From Candidatus Nitrospira kreftii (GTDB lineage: Bacteria > Nitrospirota > Nitrospiria > Nitrospirales > Nitrospiraceae), in the NCBI GenBank assembly GCA_014058405.1, contig CP047423.1:1674001-1738000 (forward strand): DNA of 64,000 nt. Reading direction: 5' to 3'. The notes beneath the pieces are model-generated. The model did not search any database and was not told where the DNA came from. It saw only the letters and a program-made list of their open reading frames with translations. Shown here piece after piece: positions 11,272 through 24,886 of this stretch. Each line of letters opens with the position of its first letter. Position 1 is the stretch's first letter. The position numbers and the translations under genes were made by a program.

Positions 11272-11301
11272 TTGACAAATTTTGCGACTCTCTCCTATTG
11301 T
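11272..11301 (+). promoter_or_regulatory. Promoter of the first cobalamin riboswitch unit
   Basis: A perfect TTGACA at 11272-11277 is followed after 18 bases by TATTGT at 11296-11301 (5 of 6). Transcription would begin just before the riboswitch aptamer. Confidence 0.6.
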
Positions 11302-11530
11302 GCTGGCCATTGTGACTCCTGAGTAAGGGAAGAGGGTGGAAAGCCCTCGTGGTCCCGCCGCTGTAAATGGGGACGAAACCCGTAAAGACCACTGGCGTGG
11401 GCGTGAAGCGTCGTTCGTGAATCGTGAAGCGCTTGCAGTTTGACGCGAGATACGCTTCACGAGATACGCTTCACGTATATGCTGGGAAGGCTCGGGGAGT
11501 AGGGTGAACCATGAGCCAGAAGACCTGCTC
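11300..11530 (+). ncRNA. Cobalamin riboswitch 1 (upstream of btuF)
   Basis: The conserved core of a cobalamin aptamer is visible in order: AAGGGAA near 11325, GGTGGAAAGCC, the CCGCCGCTGTAA box, CCACTGG, then TGGGAAGG, and the closing GCCAGAAGACCTGC box ending near 11528. It should bind adenosylcobalamin or a related corrinoid and lower expression of btuFCD. Between the CCACTGG and TGGGAAGG boxes lies a long arm made of nested inverted repeats (11402-11475). End positions are estimated from the conserved boxes, not from a covariance model. Confidence 0.9.
11402..11475 (+). repeat. Nested inverted repeats inside riboswitch 1
   Basis: CGTGAAGCGT (11402-11411) and a second CGTGAAGCG near 11423 are mirrored by ACGCTTCACG at 11452-11461 and again at 11466-11475. 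They form a double nested stem in a variable arm of the aptamer. Closely related repeats occupy the same arm of the second riboswitch (15670-15740). Confidence 0.8.
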
Positions 11531-11591
11531 AGAGAGGGTGATCTTTGTTCCCTCGAGGCTGGGGAGCAGGTGAGGATGAAGCAGCGGGTGC

Positions 11592-11627
11592 AATCCTCAG
11601 GGTCTATCCAGGCCTTGAGGATTTTTT
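11592..11627 (+). terminator. Hairpin with T-run: expression platform of riboswitch 1
   Basis: AATCCTCA (11592-11599) pairs perfectly with TGAGGATT (11616-11623), extended by GG/CC pairs, and the 3' arm runs into TTTTTTA. This looks like a Rho-independent terminator. Its 3' arm also contains GAGG, positioned as a ribosome binding site for the TTG at 11630, so the same hairpin could block translation. Confidence 0.7.
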
Positions 11628-11629
11628 AT

Positions 11630-12637
11630 TTGAGTCAAAGGGAGCGATACCTTTTCGTCAGCGCACTGAGCCTTGTGGCTGCGCTGCTGATGCTTCTTTC
11701 GTCAGCTGATGGGTGTACCGGAGATGGGTGCAGTGAGATGAAGCGGAGGCAACCAGGAATTCTTACAGGCATGCCCTTTATGGCGCATGTGTCGTCGCGG
11801 GCTTTTGTCGATGATGCGGGGCGCAGGATCTACCTTGCCAAGCCGCCCGCTCGCATCGTGTCGCTCGCTCCGAGCATTACCGAGATGCTGTTTGCGATCG
11901 GGCTGGATGAACAGATCGTCGGCGTGACCGAGTTTTGTGACTATCCGGCGGCGGCGAAGTCCAAACCCAAGGTCGGATATTCGAACCCGAGTGCAGAAGC
12001 CTTGATCGCCCTCCGGCCGGAATTAGTCCTGGCGCCCAGAGACTTTCTCCGCCCGGATCTGCAGGCTAAACTCGAGCAGCTAAAAATTCCGCTTTTCGTT
12101 CTCGAAGCTCAAACAGTGGAAGATATCCTGCTTCAAATTCACACATTGGGAAAAATGTTTGAGAAAGCGTCGGCCGCCAATGAAGTAACTCAACGCATGC
12201 GGCAACGCATCGCAGGGATTCGGCGCAAAGTCGAAACGCCGCCGGCGCGGCGGGTGCTGTATGTCCTGAATAGCCAGCCGTTGATTACCGTGGGACCGGG
12301 AAGTTTCATCCACCAGATGATCGGCCTCGCGGGAGGGATCAATATTGCCGCGCGGGCCGGCATGGCCTATCCGAAACTGAGTATGGAAGCGGTGCTGAAG
12401 GACGATCCGGAGGTGCTGATCTTTCCTAGTGGCGAAGTGGAAACAGTGCCGCGTAGCGAGCAACAACAATGGCGGCGCTGGGATTCTCTCTCGGCCGTCA
12501 AGAAGCAGCGCTTTCACGAAGTCTCCTCGAATCTGTTGAATCGCCCAGGTCCACGAGTCGTCGAGGCCTTGGAACAACTCGCCCATGCCATCCATCCGGA
12601 ACTGTTTGGTCCCGGTGAAGATGTCGTTCATCCATGA
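11630..12637 (+). CDS. btuF: Corrinoid ABC transporter substrate-binding protein (BtuF-like)
   Basis: This periplasmic or lipid-anchored binding protein of about 335 residues captures cobalamin or cobinamide and delivers it to BtuCD. It contains the family signature RIVSLAPSITEMLFAIGLDEQ, then VGYSNPSAEALIALRPELVLA, and a second lobe with LITVGPGSFIHQMIGLAGG. The start is uncertain. TTG 11630 lies after the riboswitch hairpin and gives a clean signal peptide (MSQRERYLFVSALSLVAALL) with a Cys that could be lipidated. An ATG at 11576 or GTG at 11504 would place the hairpin, or the aptamer core, inside the coding region. Confidence 0.85.
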   Translation: MSQRERYLFVSALSLVAALLMLLSSADGCTGDGCSEMKRRQPGILTGMPFMAHVSSRAFVDDAGRRIYLAKPPARIVSLAPSITEMLFAIGLDEQIVGVTEFCDYPAAAKSKPKVGYSNPSAEALIALRPELVLAPRDFLRPDLQAKLEQLKIPLFVLEAQTVEDILLQIHTLGKMFEKASAANEVTQRMRQRIAGIRRKVETPPARRVLYVLNSQPLITVGPGSFIHQMIGLAGGINIAARAGMAYPKLSMEAVLKDDPEVLIFPSGEVETVPRSEQQQWRRWDSLSAVKKQRFHEVSSNLLNRPGPRVVEALEQLAHAIHPELFGPGEDVVHP

Positions 12638-13787
12638 GGATCCTTTGAAGCCGCTGCCTGCCCCGGTTCAGTCTGGATCGTGTCCCGGAGTACTACCCAA
12701 CGAATCTTTTTGTGTGTACTCAGCAAGCGGCATTGTTGCTCAAGGCGCTATCCTCACCAATTCACGCTGGATGGCGACGATGGGAGTTCTTGCTCTTACG
12801 GCGATAGCCGTCAGCTTTGCCTGTCTTCGCTTCGGCGCACAACCGATTGCGTATGCCGAGATCCTGCGCGTATTTCTTGACGTGCTTAGCCACAAGGAAA
12901 TTGATGGTGGGACATTGGATGTCTCGACAACCATTCTCCTGCAGGTCCGACTACCAAGAATGCTGCTGGGTTTTTTCGTCGGGTGTTCACTGGCTACGGT
13001 GGGAGTTGCCTTGCAGGCGCTACTACGGAACCCGTTGGCTGATCCCTATGTTCTTGGCGTCTCTAGTGGAGCCGCACTTGGAGCCGCAGTAGGGGTCTTG
13101 CTCGGAGCAGGCACCACATTTTTGGCGGAAACCGCGTTGCCGGCATACGGGTTTGCCGGAGGCCTCCTGGCGTTAGTGGTTGTCTATCGAATGGCCGCCA
13201 GCTATGAGCAGTTGCCGATCCATAGTCTGTTGCTGACTGGGGTGATTCTAAACGCCATCTTTTCAGCTTTGATTATGTTTATTACCTCGATCCTGGAGCC
13301 GAATCGTTCGTACGGGATGATGGCCTGGTTGATGGGCACGTTGACCGCTCCCACATACGGTGGCCTGGCCGGGCTCGCCGTCTATCTTTCGATCGGCCTA
13401 TTTCTTCTGTTCAGCCAAATGCGGGTTCTCAACATCTTGGCGTTGGGAGAAGATTCTGCTCGCACTCTGGGAATCGATACGGAAAGGGCGAAGCGGTTCA
13501 TCTTTGTGTTAACGGCGTTGGTGACCGGCGCGGTCGTGTCCGTCAGCGGCATGATCGGATTTGTCGGCATGGTTGTTCCCCACGCCGTGCGGTTGGTCAC
13601 AGGCGCGGACCATCGGCTGCTTCTTCCCGCGTCAGCTCTGGTCGGTGGCACCTTTCTTATGGGCGCCGATACGCTTGCGCGGACGTTGATATCGCCCGCA
13701 GAAATTCCGGTGGGCATCATTACCGCCCTGGCCGGTGGACCGTTCTTTGTGTATCTCCTGCTCTGGCGAAAGGATCGCTTGGCGTGA
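12621..13787 (+). CDS. btuC: Corrinoid ABC transporter permease (BtuC/FecCD family)
   Basis: This integral membrane subunit of about 388 residues has around ten transmembrane segments. Family hallmarks are the segment VRLPRMLLGFFVGCSLATVG, given here in part, then ALLRNPLADPYVLGVSSGAALGA, the coupling-helix region LALGEDSARTLGI, and GFVGMVVPHAVRLV. A roughly 50-residue N-terminal extension precedes the first membrane segment, which is longer than usual; translation could begin further in. It overlaps btuF by 17 bases and btuD by 4, consistent with a stoichiometric complex. Confidence 0.92.
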   Translation: MSFIHEDPLKPLPAPVQSGSCPGVLPNESFCVYSASGIVAQGAILTNSRWMATMGVLALTAIAVSFACLRFGAQPIAYAEILRVFLDVLSHKEIDGGTLDVSTTILLQVRLPRMLLGFFVGCSLATVGVALQALLRNPLADPYVLGVSSGAALGAAVGVLLGAGTTFLAETALPAYGFAGGLLALVVVYRMAASYEQLPIHSLLLTGVILNAIFSALIMFITSILEPNRSYGMMAWLMGTLTAPTYGGLAGLAVYLSIGLFLLFSQMRVLNILALGEDSARTLGIDTERAKRFIFVLTALVTGAVVSVSGMIGFVGMVVPHAVRLVTGADHRLLLPASALVGGTFLMGADTLARTLISPAEIPVGIITALAGGPFFVYLLLWRKDRLA

Positions 13788-14686
13788 GTGAGGTGTCCGA
13801 CAGCCGATCGAAGCAAGAAGCCTTTGCCGGCTCAGTCGACGTCATCGACCCATATCCGGCGTACGACGTGCAGGCCGTTCGGTTCCGCTACCAGTCCAAG
13901 GGATCGGATGCCATCAGGTGGATCCTTGAGGATGTCTCCTTTTCCGTTCGAGCGGGTGAAGTGCTGGGTGTCGTCGGCCCCAATGGGTCTGGAAAAACCT
14001 CCTTGCTAAAAGTGCTGGCGCGGCTCATGAGTCCGCTGCAAGGTCGCATCGCCTTGTTCGGACAGGAGTTAGCCTCTATGGCTCAGCAAGAGGTTGCCTG
14101 TGTCGTAGGAGTCGTGCCGCAAGATACCCAACAGCTCTTTCCGTTTACCGTGGCAGAAACCGTTCTCATGGGGCGGTTTCCTCATCGGCCTCGCGGCCGA
14201 TGGACCAGCGGATTCGGATGGGAAAGTCGAGAAGACGTGGCTATTGTTGAAGAAGCAATGATGACGGTGGATATCATCCACGTGGCTCATCGTGCCGTCA
14301 CGGATCTTTCCGGTGGCGAGCGACAGCGCGCCATGATTGCACGGGCGCTTGCGCAGACACCGAGAGTCTTGTTGCTCGATGAGCCGACTGCGTTCCTCGA
14401 TCTGCAGCATCAGGTTGAAATCTGTTCGGTGTTGGTCCGGCTCAAAGAGGAACGCCGATTAACCGTTGTTCTCGTGTCACATGATTTAAATCTCGTCAGC
14501 CAGTATTGCGACCGCATTTTGTTGCTGGATCGCGGTCAGGTGGTACGGCTGGGCCGCCCAGAAGACGTGATTGAACCGGAAGTCTTGGAGTCGGTGTATC
14601 GGTGCCGAGTGTTGGTGGATCGGCATCCGGGAACCGGGTTGCCCCGGGTGACGCTTCCTGGACGTTCTCTATCGGGAGGAACGTGA
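13784..14686 (+). CDS. btuD: Corrinoid ABC transporter ATPase
   Basis: The 300-residue ATPase energises the BtuC permease. Walker A is GPNGSGKT (65-72), the signature is LSGGERQR (near 179), Walker B is RVLLLDEP and the H-loop is VVLVSHDLN. The GTG start overlaps the btuC stop (GTGA). The N-terminus has about 30 extra residues before the nucleotide-binding fold, and the C-terminus has the short regulatory tail seen in FecE/BtuD-type ATPases. Confidence 0.93.
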   Translation: MSEVSDSRSKQEAFAGSVDVIDPYPAYDVQAVRFRYQSKGSDAIRWILEDVSFSVRAGEVLGVVGPNGSGKTSLLKVLARLMSPLQGRIALFGQELASMAQQEVACVVGVVPQDTQQLFPFTVAETVLMGRFPHRPRGRWTSGFGWESREDVAIVEEAMMTVDIIHVAHRAVTDLSGGERQRAMIARALAQTPRVLLLDEPTAFLDLQHQVEICSVLVRLKEERRLTVVLVSHDLNLVSQYCDRILLLDRGQVVRLGRPEDVIEPEVLESVYRCRVLVDRHPGTGLPRVTLPGRSLSGGT

Positions 14687-14687
14687 T

Positions 14688-15458
14688 ATGAGAGTGGGCA
14701 AGATCGCGCTGCTTCATCTTGAGACCGTTCCTGGAGCCATCGAGCGGAACCGGTATGTGATTGTCGAGGCCATCAAGCACGCCGCGGGAACAGGTGCCGA
14801 GTGGATCGTGACACCGGAGCTTGCGGTGTGCGGACTACAGTTTGCCCACGTGGTCGGCTCGGAGTGGATACAGCCGCAACCCGACCCATGGATGCAACAG
14901 GTCTGCAAACTGGTCAAGGCTTTGAAGCGAACCGTCTTTCTTGCCTGCCCGGAGCGGGAGGGAGGTCGGTGCTATAACTCGGTGTTTGTTATCGGTCCGA
15001 CCGGTGACATTTTGGGGAAACATCGCAAGATCAATGTGGTGAGCGATTCACTGGCATGGTCGAGCCCCGGCGACCGTGTCGCTCCTATCGAGTGCGATGG
15101 GATTAAGGTCGGTGTACTCATCTGTAGTGACGTCTATACATCGAATATCGCCAGAGCGCTGAGGTTCGAAGGCGCTCAGATGTTGGTGTCGCCGGCGTCG
15201 TGGGGTCCCGGCATTCACGGTCCAAATGGGGAATGGGAGCAACGGACTCATGAAACAGGGTTGCCTTTAATTGTCTGTAATCGAACCGGCGCAGAAAAGA
15301 CGTTGGACTTTTGGAAGGCCCCGAGTCTTGTTGTGAAGGAGGGCACGCGTCTGCTCGTCCACACGTCCAAGAAATCTGCCGTGCTGACGTTTACATGGGA
15401 TTTCGAAGGCATGGCGCTGCGCTCTTCACGATATATGATCGATTACATCCGGAACTAA
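14688..15458 (+). CDS. Carbon-nitrogen hydrolase (nitrilase superfamily)
   Basis: This 256-residue enzyme has the complete nitrilase catalytic triad: Glu44 (TPELAV), Lys114 (GKHRKINV) and Cys146 (VGVLICSDVY). Such enzymes cleave non-peptide C-N bonds in amides or nitriles. It begins two bases after btuD stops, so it is almost certainly co-transcribed with the corrinoid transporter under riboswitch 1. Corrinoids carry amide side chains and an upper cyano ligand in cyanocobalamin, so a corrinoid-related substrate is conceivable, but nothing in the sequence proves it. Confidence 0.85.
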   Translation: MRVGKIALLHLETVPGAIERNRYVIVEAIKHAAGTGAEWIVTPELAVCGLQFAHVVGSEWIQPQPDPWMQQVCKLVKALKRTVFLACPEREGGRCYNSVFVIGPTGDILGKHRKINVVSDSLAWSSPGDRVAPIECDGIKVGVLICSDVYTSNIARALRFEGAQMLVSPASWGPGIHGPNGEWEQRTHETGLPLIVCNRTGAEKTLDFWKAPSLVVKEGTRLLVHTSKKSAVLTFTWDFEGMALRSSRYMIDYIRN

Positions 15459-15549
15459 TGCGCTGTCTGATTATAGTGATGCTGATGATGTGAGCAGGAA
15501 GAGTTTGCACCGCTCTCCTGCAGAAGATGTCAGGTGCGGAACAATCATT

Positions 15550-15791
15550 CTGGAGGGATCCTTTAGGTCATACCGTCAGCGACGGGGAAGATGGTGCAAA
15601 TCCATCACGGTGCCGCCACTGTAAGCGGGGAGTGACTCTGCAATGTGCCACTGTCTTAGTGGCGTGGGTCGTGAAGCGTATCTTGTGAAGCGCAAGGGAT
15701 TTCTTGCAGGCGATTCACGAAGGACGTTTCACGCTTCACGCGAAAGATGGGAAGGCGCAGAGAAGCTGTGATCCGCAAGTCAGGAGACCCA
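15550..15791 (+). ncRNA. Cobalamin riboswitch 2 (upstream of btuB and the salvage operon)
   Basis: A textbook cobalamin aptamer: ACGGGGAA near 15584, GGTGCAAATCC, CGGTGCCGCCACTGTAAGCGG, GCCACTGT, TGGGAAGGCGCAG, and GATCCGCAAGTCAGGAGACC ending at about 15790. It lies between the nitrilase gene and btuB and should repress btuB and the downstream genes when cobalamin is plentiful. As in riboswitch 1, an arm made of CGTGAAGCGT/ACGCTTCACG repeats is inserted between the GCCACTG and TGGGAAGGC boxes. Boundaries are approximate. Confidence 0.95.
15670..15740 (+). repeat. Nested inverted repeats inside riboswitch 2
   Basis: CGTGAAGCGT at 15670-15679 pairs with ACGCTTCACG at 15731-15740. An inner TGTGAAGCGC is partly mirrored by GCGATTCACGA. 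The unit is related in sequence, position and flanks (GGCGTGGG before it) to that in riboswitch 1. Confidence 0.8.
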
Positions 15792-15810
15792 ACTGTCGGG
15801 ATCTTCAACA

Positions 15811-15835: not shown

Positions 15836-17866
15836 ATGCGACGTGTTCGTCCGTGGTTTGTCTCTACCGGTATTCTGTTCCTACTGTGGAGCTTCTTGTT
15901 CTGCTTTCCCGTACGTGCTCAGGAAGTCGCGATGGCCGACCAGTCGGAGGTAATTCAGGCTCCCGACGTAGTGGTGAGCGCGACCAAGACCCCCATTCCG
16001 GCCAAACAAGTCACCAGCGCCGTGGAAGTGATCACCGGCGAAGAGATGCAACAGCGAAAAGTCAGAACCGTGGCGGAAGCCTTGCGCTGGGCTCAAGGAC
16101 TTTCGGTCAACCAGAGCGGAGGACTGGGCACCAGTGTTGATGTCCGGATGCGCGGAGGAACACCGGAACAAACGCTCGTGCTCATCGATGGGGCGATCGT
16201 CAACAGTGCCACAATCGGCAATTACGACTTTGCCAACCTCACATCCGACAACATCGAACGGATTGAAATCTTACGAGGGAGTCAGAGCATGCTCTGGGGG
16301 TCGGATGCGATGGGGGGCGTGATTAATATTACGACGAAGCGAGGACGGGACAAACCCAATGTGTCCGCGTTCGCCGAGTACGGTTCGTTTAATACCATTC
16401 GTGAAGGAGCCAGTCTATCGGGGAAGAAGGGGCCCATAGATTTCTCCGGTTCGATCACTCGCTTGGATACGGCCGGTTTTTCGGCGATCAATTATCGGCG
16501 TGGCGCAACGGAGCGCGATGGATATCACAACTGGCAAGGATCGGTTCGGCTAGGAGCTGATCTCCCCAAAGATGGACGCCTGGAGTTTAGCTTTCGATGG
16601 TTGCGGGGCAGCGTGAGTTTCGATGGATTTGCGTTTAACTCGGTTACTTTTGCCTCTGAGCCAGCTGATGTGTTTGGTGCGCGATCTCGAAATTCGCAAT
16701 ATATCTTCGCGGGAAACTATTCACAACCCATCACGACTTGGTGGTCACAACAGCTCACCGTATCGAGAGCGACTGAATCTCTTGTCAGTTATGGAGGAAC
16801 CATCGAGCAAAATGTGGTGACCGGAGCGACAGGACCGCTCGGTTTTCCGTTCAGTTCGCAGATCGAGACCACCAGTAATCGGCTGGAATGGCAGCACAAC
16901 ATTCAAGTTGGTAAGCCTTTGTTGCTGACGGGGGGATATCAATTTCGTGAGCAGAAAGGCGATAACACCGATGTGTTGCTTCAGGCGCCTGCGTTTTCGA
17001 ACAAGGCCCTCAGTAGCCATGGTGGATTCGGTGAGGCTCAACTAAATCTCTGGGATCGTCTGTTTGCAACTGCCGGCGTTCGGCAGGATGAATACAATGT
17101 TTTCGGAAGCGCTACGACGTATCGAGTGACCGGCGGGTATTTGGTCAAAGAAACTGGTACGAAGTTACGCGGGAGCTATTCAACCGGCTTTCGGGCTCCG
17201 ACGATCAACCAGCTGTTCTTTCCCAATTTCGGCAACCCTAATTTGAAGCCAGAGAGAAGCCAGGGATTGGACGCGGCCATCGAACAAACGCTGCCGAATG
17301 ATCGAGGGACCATCAGTGTGGGGTATTTCTGGACACGATATCGGGACCTCATTCTTTCTGCTCAAGATCCCATCGCTTGCGGAATCGGACCGTTTGGAGC
17401 CAACTTCTGTGCTCTGAACGTCGGTCTTGCCACCGCACGAGGCTTCGAAGCAACCGTCAAATTGCATGTGTATCGCGACCAACCTTGGGCCAAAAGCCTC
17501 GATTTGCTGGTTCACTATACGTACACGGATACGGAAAACTTTCAAAATGGCCAGGCCACACGTGTTCCCAAATGGCCGCTTAACCAATGGTCAGCCATTC
17601 TCAGCTATCAACCGATCGAGGCATTGCGAGGTAATCTGGAAGGGCGATATATCGGAGAACGGTTTAACAATGTTGGGAACAGTAATCCGATCCCGTCTTT
17701 TCTCGTCTGGAATGTGTCAGCCAGCTATGACGTGACGAAGTATATGCAGGCCTACATCCGTTTTGACAACATCTTCAATGAGAAATACGAGGAAATTTTG
17801 TTTCTCGGCACACCGATCCGGTCGATTTTCGGCGGCGTGCGAATCAATTATGATCTTCCGATCTAG
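15836..17866 (+). CDS. btuB: TonB-dependent corrinoid receptor (BtuB-like)
   Basis: This 676-residue outer-membrane receptor imports corrinoids using TonB energy. It has a signal peptide (residues 1-28, ending FPVRAQ), a plug domain beginning with DVVVSATKTPIPAKQVTSAV and containing VDVRMRGGTPEQTLVLIDG and GSQSMLWGSDAMGGVINITT, and a long beta-barrel ending in FGGVRINYDLP. The ATG at 15836 follows a strong GGGAGG site; upstream in-frame codons lie inside the riboswitch. Control by a cobalamin riboswitch supports a corrinoid substrate. It is followed without a gap by the cobB relic. Confidence 0.92.
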   Translation: MRRVRPWFVSTGILFLLWSFLFCFPVRAQEVAMADQSEVIQAPDVVVSATKTPIPAKQVTSAVEVITGEEMQQRKVRTVAEALRWAQGLSVNQSGGLGTSVDVRMRGGTPEQTLVLIDGAIVNSATIGNYDFANLTSDNIERIEILRGSQSMLWGSDAMGGVINITTKRGRDKPNVSAFAEYGSFNTIREGASLSGKKGPIDFSGSITRLDTAGFSAINYRRGATERDGYHNWQGSVRLGADLPKDGRLEFSFRWLRGSVSFDGFAFNSVTFASEPADVFGARSRNSQYIFAGNYSQPITTWWSQQLTVSRATESLVSYGGTIEQNVVTGATGPLGFPFSSQIETTSNRLEWQHNIQVGKPLLLTGGYQFREQKGDNTDVLLQAPAFSNKALSSHGGFGEAQLNLWDRLFATAGVRQDEYNVFGSATTYRVTGGYLVKETGTKLRGSYSTGFRAPTINQLFFPNFGNPNLKPERSQGLDAAIEQTLPNDRGTISVGYFWTRYRDLILSAQDPIACGIGPFGANFCALNVGLATARGFEATVKLHVYRDQPWAKSLDLLVHYTYTDTENFQNGQATRVPKWPLNQWSAILSYQPIEALRGNLEGRYIGERFNNVGNSNPIPSFLVWNVSASYDVTKYMQAYIRFDNIFNEKYEEILFLGTPIRSIFGGVRINYDLPI

Positions 17867-18237
17867 ATGAGCATGGGAAAGTATCCGCGATTGGTCATTG
17901 CCGGTACGTCAAACGGCGTCGGCAATAGGACGGCATCATTGGCGATTCCGACGGCCTTGCGTGAGCAAGGCCGTCGGGTTCAGCCGTTCAAGATTGGGCC
18001 TGAGTTTATCGATCACAGGCATCATCATGCGGCCACAGGCCGACCATATGCCTGCGTGATGCTGAAGGACTCTTGAGGGGACAGAATGAACTCATGAACG
18101 GCAACGCGCTGGCGCTCAATACCCATCTGCATTTTGCCAGCCAGCTTAAAATTATAGTGTCGCTGGGTGAGTCGGCGCGTCCTGCAGCTAGTCGGATATT
18201 CGAAACGGCGAAAAGTATGCTGGGAGTAGATCGATGA
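17867..18237 (+). pseudogene. cobB: Relic of cobyrinate a,c-diamide synthase (cobB/cbiA) with a large internal deletion
   Basis: Two pieces of CobB survive. Positions 17867-18076 encode the N-terminus (KYPRLVIAGTSNGVGNRT ... RVQPFKIGPEFID ... HHHAATGRP). Its Walker A loop is damaged: the family has GTSSGVGKTT, and here the catalytic Lys is Asn. The frame then stops. In another frame, 18094-18237 encodes the family's C-terminal end (GNALALNTHLHFASQ), whose usual form is NVLASYxHLHFAS. A normal protein has about 450-480 residues; here about 115 remain. The relic sits in the proper place in the operon, between btuB and the CWC gene. Confidence 0.85.
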
Positions 18238-18464
18238 GGGGGCCGGTTCAGAAAACCTGCGAAAGCTGCGGCCGGAGTTTCGAGTGTGTTGGATACCAAT
18301 GCTGGTGCGGCAAACTCGGAATCACTGAAAAACAGATGGATTGGATTGCAGCGCGATATAAAGATTGTCTCTGTTCTCATTGTTTGCAAAAAATCGCAGC
18401 AGGCGAGCTGGGGCCTCATCTTCATTCGATGGACAGCAGACATGGCAACGGAGCAGGGCAATGA
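18234..18464 (+). CDS. Cysteine-rich CWC-family protein
   Basis: This 76-residue protein has the cysteine pattern of the CWC family: CESCGRSFEC, then QCWC, then CLCSHCL, likely holding zinc. The role of the family is unknown, but it is often found beside corrinoid genes. The ATG overlaps the stop of the cobB relic (ATGA), and its own stop overlaps the bluB start in the same way. The coupling has survived although the upstream gene decayed. Confidence 0.75.
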   Translation: MRGPVQKTCESCGRSFECVGYQCWCGKLGITEKQMDWIAARYKDCLCSHCLQKIAAGELGPHLHSMDSRHGNGAGQ

Positions 18465-19228
18465 GGCAGGCCACTGGTCGATTTTCAGGTGCTGAGCGAG
18501 AGGCTGTCTATCGGGCGATTTTCGAGCGGCGAGATGTGCGCCGAAATTTTCTGCCTGAGCCGATTCCGGATGCGGTGATGATGAGGCTGCTCACGGCAGC
18601 GCATTATGCGGGATCGGTAGGATTCATGCAGCCGTGGGATTTCGTGGTCATCCGCAATCGTACGACGAAGCACGCGGTGAAGGACCTCTTCGTCGATGCG
18701 AACACCAAAGCGTCCGCTCGATATGCAGGCGCCAAGGGGGCATTGTACGGGCAGCTGAAGCTGGAAGGCATTGAAGAAGCGCCGATTAATCTGTGCATCA
18801 CGTGTAGCCGACGGCGTGGGGGGCCACAGGTGCTTGGCCGCTCCACGGTACGCGCAACGGACTTGTACAGCACCTGCTGTGCCGTTCAGAATCTCTGGCT
18901 GGCCGCTCGTGCCGAAGGCATCGGTGTCGGGTGGGTCAGTATTCTGGACCACGAGGTACTGAAACGCCTGATCGGTGTCCCCAAGACGGTGACGGTCCTC
19001 GCCTATCTTTGCCTCGGCTATGTGTCCAAGTTTGAAGGTAAGCCCGATTTAGAAGCAGCTGGGTGGCGGAGACGGATTCCAGTTGGTCGGTTGATTCATT
19101 ATGAGTCATGGGGCAATCGAGCCTATGACAAGAGGGAGAACAGTGATGCGCATCACCAAGGTCTATACAAGAACAGGGGATGCAGGAAAAACCAGACTGG
19201 CCGGCGGGCAGCAGGTCTGGAAAGATAG
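18461..19228 (+). CDS. bluB: 5,6-Dimethylbenzimidazole synthase (BluB)
   Basis: This 255-residue flavin enzyme of the nitroreductase fold converts FMNH2 and oxygen to 5,6-dimethylbenzimidazole, the lower ligand of cobalamin. Family features are YRAIFERRDVRRNF near the N-terminus, AHYAGSVGFMQPWDFVVI, and AARAEGIGVGWVSIL. The ATG at 18461 overlaps the CWC stop. The recognisable BluB sequence ends around LIHYESWG; the frame then continues for about 40 unusual residues, overlapping the adenosyltransferase gene by 83 bases. An ancestral stop may have been lost. Confidence 0.92.
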   Translation: MRQATGRFSGAEREAVYRAIFERRDVRRNFLPEPIPDAVMMRLLTAAHYAGSVGFMQPWDFVVIRNRTTKHAVKDLFVDANTKASARYAGAKGALYGQLKLEGIEEAPINLCITCSRRRGGPQVLGRSTVRATDLYSTCCAVQNLWLAARAEGIGVGWVSILDHEVLKRLIGVPKTVTVLAYLCLGYVSKFEGKPDLEAAGWRRRIPVGRLIHYESWGNRAYDKRENSDAHHQGLYKNRGCRKNQTGRRAAGLER

Positions 19229-19742
19229 CTTACGCGTTGAAGCTTACGGGACGGTGGATGAACTCAATGCGTCGGTCGGCGTAGTTCGTGTGATGAATGC
19301 CGACATGACCAACGAACACCGGGCGGCCCAGCGGCTCGAAGAAGAACTGCGCTGGGTGCAAAATAAGTTATTCGATGTGGGAAGTATTCTTGCGACGGCG
19401 CCGGGGCAGACATTCAAGAATATGCCGCAAGTAGGGGGGCAGGACGTCACGCGCCTGGAAAAACTGATCGATCGCTGCCAAAAGGATCTGGAACCCCTTA
19501 AAGAATTCATCCTGCCTGGCGGAGGGAAAGTATCCGGCTTTCTGCATCAAGCCAGGACGATCTGCCGTCGAGCCGAGCGGTTGTGTGTGGCGCTTTCAAA
19601 AACAGAGCCGGTCGATTCGACGATCATCAAGTTCATCAATCGGCTGAGTGATGCGCTGTTTGTGTTGGCCCGTTGGGTCGCCAAGACACAGGGCGAGCCG
19701 GAATTCTTATGGGACCGTGATGTTGCCAAGAAAGTCGAGTAG
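19146..19742 (+). CDS. pduO: Cob(I)alamin adenosyltransferase, PduO type
   Basis: The 198-residue enzyme transfers the adenosyl group of ATP to reduced corrinoids. The N-terminal ATP-binding signature VYTRTGDAGKTRLAGG, the VDELNASVG helix and the C-terminal CRRAERLCVAL segment mark the PduO/EutT-type trimeric family. The ATG at 19146 gives the usual start and length. It lies inside the 3' end of bluB in another frame and overlaps cobU by 23 bases. Confidence 0.94.
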   Translation: MRITKVYTRTGDAGKTRLAGGQQVWKDSLRVEAYGTVDELNASVGVVRVMNADMTNEHRAAQRLEEELRWVQNKLFDVGSILATAPGQTFKNMPQVGGQDVTRLEKLIDRCQKDLEPLKEFILPGGGKVSGFLHQARTICRRAERLCVALSKTEPVDSTIIKFINRLSDALFVLARWVAKTQGEPEFLWDRDVAKKVE

Positions 19743-20280
19743 GCGACAATCAGCACAGCCGGCCAACAATCGAATTATTCTTGTGCTGGGTGGTGCTGCA
19801 TCCGGCAAGAGTGAAGTAGCACTGCGCCTTGCTGGTTTGGGTGGCCCTCACGCGTTCGTCGCGACAGGTCAGGGATTGGATGATGAGATGATAGAGCGAA
19901 TTGCCAGGCATCGCGCCACACGGTCACCGGTTTGGGAGACGGTTGAGGAGCCGATCGAGGTGGAGGCGTGGATTGCCAAACACGGATCTCGGTACCGGAC
20001 GATTCTCCTGGATTGCGTCACGCTCTGGCTGAGTAATCTCATCGGAAGCGGGTTGTCAGAAGCTACGGTGCTGCAGCGAGTTGCTTCACTCATGCCGGCT
20101 ATGCGGGCAACGACGGCACGAATCGTGATCGTCAGCAATGAATTGGGATTGGGGCTGGTCCCTGCCGAGCCTATGGTGCGTGCCTTTCGAGATCTTGCCG
20201 GGCGGGTGAATCAGCACATTGCTGGAGAGGCGGATGAGGTTCGTTTTGTTATCAGTGGGCTGGCGCTTCGATTGAAATGA
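19720..20280 (+). CDS. cobU: Adenosylcobinamide kinase / phosphate guanylyltransferase
   Basis: The 186-residue bifunctional enzyme phosphorylates adenosylcobinamide and then adds GMP, giving AdoCbi-GDP. The P-loop is GGAASGKSE; other signatures are [30 protein letters not shown] and [11 protein letters not shown]. The start is set at ATG 19720, 23 bases inside the adenosyltransferase gene, which gives a short tail before the P-loop. It overlaps cobT by four bases. Confidence 0.94.
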
Positions 20281-23070: not shown

Positions 23071-24170
23071 GGAATGCGATCCATGGTGGGAACGTCTATG
23101 CGGCCTCACGGGATCTCGGTCGAAGTGTTCGTAATCTGATCGACTTCAGTGCCAGCATTAATCCGCTGGGGCCATCTCCACGGGTCTGGCGAGCGATTGC
23201 TGATTCTCGTCATCTGCTGTCCCATTACCCCGATCCAGATTGTTGGGAGCTTCGTCAGGCGCTCGCCAAATGCTGGGAGCGACAGCCGGATGAGATTGCG
23301 GTTGGAAACGGCTCAACGGAATTGATTGATGTATTCCCTCGTGCACTCAAGATTCGGCATCTGCTCGTCATACACCCTACTTTTTCGGAGTATGTGGCAA
23401 CGATGGAGCGTGTCGGAGGTCGTGTCAGTGCCGTCTGCGCAAAGCGCACAGAACAGTATATGCAACCGATCAAGGATCTCTGTCGTGTGCTGGATGCACG
23501 ACGACCCAAGTCCAGTGCGATCGATGGAGTCATGCTGTGCAATCCCAATAGCCCAACTGGGCAAGCCTGCACGGTCGATGAGGTCTGGCGATTGGCGGAC
23601 CTCGCTCAGCGGCGAGGCATATGGTTGATCATTGATGAGGCATTTGCCGATTACTGTGCTGAACGATCTTTCCTTCCAGTGGCAGTTGCTTGGCCGCGTG
23701 TGGTGATCTTGCGCAGCGTAACCAAGTTCTATGCACTGCCCGGCCTTCGGGTTGGGTACGCAGTCGCCAAACCCACCGTGGTCGAAGCGCTCCGCCGGCA
23801 GATGCCGCCGTGGTCCGTCAATGTAATGGGGCAAGCGGCAGCGTTGGCTGCTGTGAACGATTCGGGTTATGCTCGAAAAAGCGTGTGTTTCATGGACTGT
23901 GAACGAGAACGGCTTGGAATCATGCTGGCTGCCTTACCCTATTGTGTGGTCACGCCATCCTATGCCAATTACTTTTTTCTAGAACTCCCTCGTGGATGGT
24001 CCGCGCGTGAAGTCAGTGCCGCGCTGCGAGGCGATGGATTGCTGATCCGTGACTGTTCGACTGTTCCCGGTGCAAATGCTCGTTCGATTCGACTTGCAGT
24101 GCGTTCACATGACGAGAATGTTCGCCTAATTCAAGCCTTGTCAGGATTGCTACGGCAAAAAAGATCGTGA
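23058..24170 (+). CDS. cobD: L-threonine-O-3-phosphate decarboxylase
   Basis: The 370-residue PLP enzyme makes (R)-1-amino-2-propanol phosphate for CbiB. It belongs to the aminotransferase I/II fold: the N-terminal IHGGNVY and FSASINPLGPS are typical of CobD, CNPNSPTG binds PLP, and the Schiff-base lysine is K223 in SVTKFYALPGLRVGY. The GTG start overlaps cbiB by 13 bases, and the end overlaps cbiZ by four. Confidence 0.94.
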   Translation: MARLRNAIHGGNVYAASRDLGRSVRNLIDFSASINPLGPSPRVWRAIADSRHLLSHYPDPDCWELRQALAKCWERQPDEIAVGNGSTELIDVFPRALKIRHLLVIHPTFSEYVATMERVGGRVSAVCAKRTEQYMQPIKDLCRVLDARRPKSSAIDGVMLCNPNSPTGQACTVDEVWRLADLAQRRGIWLIIDEAFADYCAERSFLPVAVAWPRVVILRSVTKFYALPGLRVGYAVAKPTVVEALRRQMPPWSVNVMGQAAALAAVNDSGYARKSVCFMDCERERLGIMLAALPYCVVTPSYANYFFLELPRGWSAREVSAALRGDGLLIRDCSTVPGANARSIRLAVRSHDENVRLIQALSGLLRQKRS

Positions 24171-24886
24171 ATGTCCGAACTCGGAAAGGTGCCCGTATTC
24201 AGCATCAGGTAGTTGGGCACACGCTTGTGATTCGTCTCGGTGGTCGAAAGCGAGTGCTTTCATCAGCGCCGCTAGGTGGAGGGTTTGGTCTCGCATCATC
24301 AATTCTAAACGATCAAGTCGAAGAGAATGGTCCCATTAAGGGGCACTATCTCACGCCGGCGCACTACTTACAAAAACTCGCTTCCCGACTCCAACTCAGT
24401 GGTAAAACCATCGGACTCATGACGGCGGTGCCGATGACACAGCTGGTCACGACACGAGTTGCTGCGAAGGAACTCTGGGTGGAATGTTTTGGAACCGTCG
24501 GCGTGAACAATGCTGTCCGAGTAGGAGAGTGGCCGCTTCGATGGGCACCAGCAAAGGCATGGAACAAACCGGGCACGATCAATCTCATCGTGATTACCAA
24601 TGCGAGTCTTTCGAGCGCCGCAATGGTCGGTGCTGTACAGGTCGTTACGGAAGCCAAGACGAGTGTCTTGATGGATCATGCGGTGAGAAGCAAGGAAGAC
24701 CAGTCTTTGGCAACCGGGACTGGGACAGATGCAGTCGTCATTGCGTGTGCGTTGCGTGGACAAGGACCGTTTCACCAATACAGTGGGACTCACACAATCA
24801 TCGGTGCACTCATCGGAAAAGCGGTCGCCAGATGTGTTTCTCTAGGCTTAGTCAAGGCTGAGCAGTGGCAGAAGGCTTTCGGATGA
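24167..24886 (+). CDS. cbiZ: Adenosylcobinamide amidohydrolase
   Basis: The 239-residue enzyme removes the aminopropanol arm from adenosylcobinamide or from corrinoids with unwanted lower ligands, yielding adenosylcobyric acid for rebuilding. Family features are the early SSAPLGGGFG segment, GLMTAVPMTQL, LIVITNASLSSAAMVGA and the closing TGTGTDAVVIAC. The GTG start overlaps the cobD stop. It is a hallmark of corrinoid remodelling and works with CbiB and CobD beside it. Confidence 0.93.
   Translation: MNVRTRKGARIQHQVVGHTLVIRLGGRKRVLSSAPLGGGFGLASSILNDQVEENGPIKGHYLTPAHYLQKLASRLQLSGKTIGLMTAVPMTQLVTTRVAAKELWVECFGTVGVNNAVRVGEWPLRWAPAKAWNKPGTINLIVITNASLSSAAMVGAVQVVTEAKTSVLMDHAVRSKEDQSLATGTGTDAVVIACALRGQGPFHQYSGTHTIIGALIGKAVARCVSLGLVKAEQWQKAFG

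Follow-up and report, generated by a model that had tools for sequence, protein, structure and literature searches.

An amidase-like gene of the nitrilase superfamily in the corrinoid import operon of Nitrospiraceae

A second glutamate that follows soon after the catalytic lysine and belongs to a catalytic tetrad is common in the nitrilase superfamily, and its place in the loop varies (K+7, counted from the lysine, in plant nitrilase and K+11 in beta-ureidopropionase). It has been reported as a member of the tetrad in plant nitrilases and in beta-ureidopropionase (PMC6214922, PMC10741476), and the E207Q variant of the latter, in which this residue is changed, was inactive (PMC10741476). On the corrinoid side, a part in B12 salvage has been predicted for a gene that is attached to btuCDF and belongs to the family DUF71-B12 (COG2102) (PMC3541065). 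Nitrospira play a key part in nitrite oxidation, and Nitrospira marina at least cannot make B12; this auxotroph relies on the corrinoids of others and encodes the salvage of cobinamide and cobyrinate (PMC8115632). Among open-licence papers, no account was found of a corrinoid operon with a gene for a nitrilase or other carbon-nitrogen hydrolase.

The window analysed here, a stretch of 64,000 nucleotides from Candidatus Nitrospira kreftii, was taken from a Nitrospiraceae genome (G000) that consists of one contig of 4.1 Mb. It carries an amidase-like gene, termed NIT below, as the last member of the series btuF-btuC-btuD-NIT (Table 1). The first-pass annotation had described a complete nitrilase-family reading frame with the Glu, Lys and Cys residues, placed directly after btuD in a corrinoid operon with a riboswitch ahead, and both statements were confirmed. 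The reading frame starts with ATG and encodes 256 amino acids; a single base separates it from the stop codon of btuD (TGA, 14684-14686), and GGGAGG lies immediately 5' of the ATG. Judged from gene order and spacing, NIT would be co-transcribed with btuD and would be under B12 control through the riboswitch ahead of btuF. The terminator-like hairpin in the interval between aptamer and btuF is probably the switch element. The GTG called as the start of btuF (11504) is inside the aptamer, and therefore the true start is probably downstream, at about 11629. The second riboswitch forms the 3' border of the slot occupied by NIT. Behind btuB follows a salvage cluster that holds bluB, pduO and cobU and, in its later part, cbiZ.

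Table 1 Features of the corrinoid locus in the window
Feature	Position in window	Strand	Evidence
Cobalamin riboswitch aptamer (RF00174), 5' of btuF	11279..11546	+	79.7 bits, gathering threshold 31.5
Terminator-like hairpin with T-run, aptamer-btuF interval	11592..11623	+	Consensus scan only: 14 pairs, tail TTTTATTTGA
btuF, corrinoid-binding protein	11504..12637 as called	+	PF01497 E 5e-32; NCBIfam PRK03379 BtuF E 4e-34, below cut-off
btuC, permease	12585..13787	+	PF01032 E 8e-86; NCBIfam PRK09535 BtuC E 3e-78, below cut-off
btuD, ATPase	13784..14686	+	PF00005 E 2e-35; PRK09536 corrinoid ATPase E 1e-70, below cut-off
NIT, amidase-like carbon-nitrogen hydrolase	14688..15458	+	PF00795 E 1.2e-26, conservation, model, fold, dN/dS
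Second cobalamin riboswitch, before btuB	15548..15810	+	85.7 bits; slot borders in sister operons
btuB, TonB-dependent corrinoid receptor	15836..17866	+	PF00593, PF07715; NCBIfam TonB-B12 E 5e-69, below cut-off
bluB, pduO, cobU (lower-ligand synthesis, adenosylation, salvage)	18365..20280, starts approximate	+	TIGR02476, TIGR00636, PRK05800, above cut-off
cbiZ, cobinamide/pseudo-B12 amidohydrolase	24167..24886	+	PF01955 E 1.3e-54 at G000:C1:1698236-1698838 (window 24236-24838)
cobT, cobS, cbiB, cobD, cobQ	downstream		Named from sequence alone

Some further features of the same region were recorded. In the variable arm of both riboswitches lies a palindromic insert that contains CGTGAAGCG (window 11402-11475 and 15670-15740); all six copies of CGTGAAGCG in the window lie within riboswitch variable arms, against 0.6 expected, and the insert may be a small mobile repeat. 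A remnant of cobB/cbiA was found at window positions 17885-18046 (+), where the N-terminal 54 amino acids are 59% identical and the P-loop is degraded. No cobB match at E 1e-40 was found in the window's genome, and most relatives keep cobB between btuB and bluB. Between the remnant and bluB lies a gene for a small, cysteine-rich CWC protein (PF14375; 18234-18386, +).

The sole Pfam match of NIT was PF00795 (CN_hydrolase), with 94.1 bits against a cut-off of 23.2 and covering profile positions 1-245 of 256; PF01955, the CbiZ domain, was absent from NIT in the same search. The triad E44, K114 and C146 was invariant across 32-33 aligned relatives. None of the curated NCBIfam models reached its cut-off: PRK13981 matched best with 70 of 479 bits, two nitrilase models scored 59.4 of 500 and 28.8 of 502.6 bits, and the model of deaminated glutathione amidase scored 56.5 of 355 bits. 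Within the nitrilase superfamily NIT is a member of an unnamed subfamily; it has motifs of its own (WI.PQPD.W and HGPNGEWE) and is under purifying selection, with a dN/dS of 0.08-0.19 (about 0.1), similar to that of btuC and btuD. The predicted structure (pLDDT 93.3) has the alpha-beta-beta-alpha fold and matched structures of the superfamily at Z 28-31. The top match was 6ypa, an amidase with bound glutaramide (Z 31.2, 239 residues), in a ranking where matches within Z 1 of each other count as tied. True nitrilases usually carry the signature C-W-E around the nucleophile. This signature was not present in any of the 45 distinct sequences of the linked form, that is the form of the window, all of which read C-[S/A]-D from the nucleophile on. 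Because of this motif and the best fold match, sequence and predicted fold point to an amidase and not to a nitrilase or cyanide hydrolase. The hydrolysis of cyanide or a nitrile, which had been suggested at first, thus finds little room here: NIT also lacks the extension of helical nitrilases, and the cyanide dihydratases that it matched have 315-330 amino acids.

The 45 distinct linked sequences also share a loop, K-[I/L]-N-x-x-S-D-S-[L/R/S/M]-x-W-S, in which K+8 is always non-acidic (Leu, Arg, Ser or Met). In nearly all relatives K+8 is Glu; the unlinked forms and those of other phyla have a Glu two residues before the loop Trp; the exception is a copy from Peribacillus. By this alignment, the linked clade appears to have lost the second catalytic Glu kept by its relatives, and Asp120 (K+6), invariant in the clade, may take its place. 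Behind the catalytic Glu, the linked form reads CGLQF and the others mostly GY.F, with GLQF found again in the Peribacillus plasmid copy, which is not corrinoid-linked.

Linkage was surveyed in 175 Nitrospiraceae genomes. The linked form was found in 58 of them (62-100% identity, fragmented in a few) and a second, unlinked form in 55 (47-55% identity, some only in pieces). No genome holds both forms, against about 18 expected by chance if kinship is left uncorrected, and this mutual exclusion suggests one function that needs no B12 control. Wherever linked NIT and btuC are on one contig (52/52 genomes), the two genes share a strand and NIT follows btuC at a distance of 875-1188 bp, and no linked form away from the btuD slot was found in these 52 assessable genomes; in the remaining linked-form genomes, NIT and btuC are on separate contigs (five) or a btuC match is missing (one). 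The unlinked form was adjacent to btuC in none of the 49 genomes having both, and 30 genomes have btuC but neither form. All 20 clade loci that were fetched have NIT inside the btu operon, and the order btuF-btuC-btuD-NIT-btuB was seen in all 19 longer ones, from three genera. A cobalamin riboswitch (RF00174) stands at the head of the NIT operon in the window and in other clade loci, and riboswitches flank the importer-NIT unit on both sides in all six loci scanned for RNA families. Linkage with btuFCD in other genomes, which the first-pass annotation had named as a check, is thus conserved in this clade.

The linked sequences form one clade (support 99/98), with members down to 62% identity, and the unlinked Nitrospiraceae form falls into another (99/99) together with Desulfuromonadales, one Deltaproteobacteria-labelled MAG and one acidobacterium. 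The BtuC tree is discordant with the NIT tree and requires at least seven label changes (gains or losses of NIT), always at the same slot, and in comparisons of sister operons NIT is present or missing as a clean cassette that runs from the end of btuD to the riboswitch with the same borders. Therefore NIT was lost, or moved along with the slot, on many occasions. For three of the four sister pairs, the genome whose operon lacks NIT carries the unlinked form (G160, G048 and, in pieces, G136); in the fourth (G075) neither form is present. The fixed position of NIT may reflect common descent and recombination. At L037, L040 and L041, btuC is 58-59% identical to that of the window and NIT 85-88%. 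These loci belong to one genus, in which the whole btuFCD was swapped for a lineage about 58-67% identical, and the NIT and btuB around the exchanged genes remain 74-88% identical.

Outside the linked clade, a scan of 84,980 species gave 173 relatives, and the 80 of them that were kept came from Nitrospiraceae, SAR202 and other Chloroflexota, Desulfuromonadales and one acidobacterium. A search of the remaining Nitrospirota at E 1e-24 gave no relative. The sister forms in other Nitrospiraceae, Chloroflexota and Desulfuromonadales (47-55% identical) were not corrinoid-linked: no corrinoid genes lay beside them in nearly all loci examined and no cobalamin riboswitch near them in the loci tested, the exception in both respects being the acidobacterial gene L145. 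Consistent operon partner genes, sought around the unlinked forms as a functional clue, were not found, and the Peribacillus plasmid copy is a stand-alone gene. L145 has a gene for a CarboxypepD_reg outer-membrane-type protein on one side (opposite strand), and some 250 bases downstream of L145 stands a cobalamin riboswitch; nearby are cobB, a btuF-like gene and two further cobalamin riboswitches (three in all), in a genome with eight in 5 Mb. No further acidobacterial copies near corrinoid genes were found, the gene being present in one of 300 genomes of the family, and with about 30 loci looked at, this single case is no more than suggestive. The corrinoid role proposed in the first-pass annotation therefore stands in part: linkage is conserved within the clade, and elsewhere, with this one acidobacterial exception, the subfamily is nearly always unlinked. 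An apparent Tat signal was seen in the unlinked copies L055, L069 and L074, which may be exported, and not in others. Export of all unlinked forms was considered and rejected, since the apparent signal occurs in only three fetched copies from two genera.

These results are best explained, as we tentatively propose, by the one-time recruitment of an amidase as an accessory to corrinoid scavenging. This event in Nitrospiraceae would have brought NIT to its place behind btuD and ahead of the btuB riboswitch. There it would share a transcript with the importer genes and presumably be made when B12 is scarce, as a non-essential accessory that acts on an amide arising when corrinoids are imported, opened or remodelled, converting amide and water to acid and ammonia via a Cys thioester. 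Candidate substrates are amides of a corrinoid and small amides tied to low B12. We infer this corrinoid-linked role mainly because the slot has held through a long divergence in which the importer genes changed, which is the strongest argument; the salvage cluster with cbiZ and the riboswitch context of L145 were also counted for it. Counted against it were the many B12-scavenging relatives without NIT, the mostly unlinked state of the subfamily outside the clade, and a mismatch in one Chloroflexota order, where a relative occurs in 46 of 247 genomes, CbiZ in only 4 and both in 2. What speaks most strongly against it is the unlinked sister, which seems to stand in for NIT where no corrinoid context exists. 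A serious rival, for which the chances are appreciable though smaller, is that a general small-amide amidase was once inserted behind btuD and kept by descent and recombination, so that its substrate would be unconnected with corrinoids and the B12 control incidental. Stand-alone members in other Nitrospiraceae, Chloroflexota, Desulfuromonadales and on the Peribacillus plasmid fit such a history, as does the mutual exclusion of the two forms, which is how isofunctional genes behave; it accounts less well for a linked form that is always at btuD (52/52) though the BtuC around it changed lineage, and for an active-site loop unlike that of the unlinked form.

It is rather unlikely that NIT, by way of an altered tetrad, cleaves an amide of the corrinoid proper, be it a peripheral carboxamide or the amide of the nucleotide loop, in a salvage step beside CbiZ. 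The usual pocket of the nitrilase-superfamily fold is small for a corrinoid, which counts against corrinoids as substrate; of the first-pass suggestions, hydrolysis of a corrinoid amide may still hold, and it is the nitrile or cyanide alternative that is disfavoured. Still less probable is an omega-amidase that removes 2-ketoglutaramate under the methionine stress of low B12. The possible logic is that MetH fails without B12, and more methionine salvage with glutamine as amino donor then yields 2-ketoglutaramate. Such enzymes belong to the nitrilase superfamily and are linked to methionine salvage (PMC6302742), the B12-dependent methionine synthase MetH is the only kind in Nitrospira (PMC8115632), mtnA is present in the window's genome, and the best fold match of NIT binds glutaramide. 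However, NIT is not near salvage genes, it stays far under the cut-offs of the curated amidase models matched, and a second gene of the window's genome, L001, matches that amidase type better. Two other readings have very little probability. A hydrolase detoxifying cyanide from cyanocobalamin could appeal to distant cyanide dihydratase matches (E about 1e-8), against which stand the motif, the length and the 59 of 500 bits described above, and the greater closeness to amidases in sequence as well as fold. An altered or inactive hydrolase, binding a corrinoid or amide as chaperone or sensor, would suit the missing Glu at K+8 and the inactivity of the equivalent beta-ureidopropionase variant (PMC10741476), but the triad is invariant, Asp120 may replace the Glu, and the loop position is variable across the superfamily. 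Among the candidates tried, a NIT that replaces or counters amidation (anticorrelation with cobB/cbiA) was rejected, as cobB and cobO are present in many NIT operons and the association with cobB/cbiA is positive (87/113 NIT genomes against 23/62 without, all genomes surveyed). A partnership with CbiZ was found weak; CbiZ occurs in 106/113 NIT genomes against 30/62 without NIT in Nitrospiraceae, counts that take neither kinship nor genome size into account, and the association fails in Chloroflexota. Under the favoured reading of a recruited accessory, NIT, with its place beside the importer, may carry out an undescribed step by which the range of usable corrinoids is widened or tuned, and the unlinked form present in those genera offers a natural control.

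Compared with described enzymes, NIT has the fold of the Pyrococcus horikoshii amidase PH0642 (1j31; 6ypa is its C146A variant with glutaramide) and of 3ivz from P. abyssi, with Z 31, 2.3-2.4 A over 236-239 residues, 25% identity and an equivalent Glu-Lys-Cys triad. PH0642 has Glu at K+7, whereas in NIT an Asp occupies K+6 and K+8 varies, and L001 is much closer to the PH0642 type than NIT is. The best curated match for NIT and for both unlinked forms tested, PRK13981, represents the glutaminase domain of glutamine-dependent NAD+ synthetase (70 bits for NIT, 64 and 69 for the unlinked forms); unlike it, NIT has no synthetase domain, and the window's genome has its own NadE, L003. In this NAD+ synthetase (G000:C1:866134-867918, outside the window) Gly replaces the glutaminase nucleophile Cys (SIGEDLW), which may be genuine or may stem from an error in sequencing; CED stands there in each of the 29 relatives that were read. 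The idea that NIT feeds ammonia to a NadE lacking this Cys was rejected, since those 29 relatives keep it. CbiZ, encoded in the same cluster, would share with NIT the kind of reaction on a corrinoid, but it belongs to the unrelated family PF01955 and is present besides NIT. DUF71-B12 resembles NIT in being attached to btuCDF and differs in being a PP-loop ATPase of an unrelated protein family; by analogy, it offers a precedent for a gene that is attached to the importer with no reaction assigned to it.
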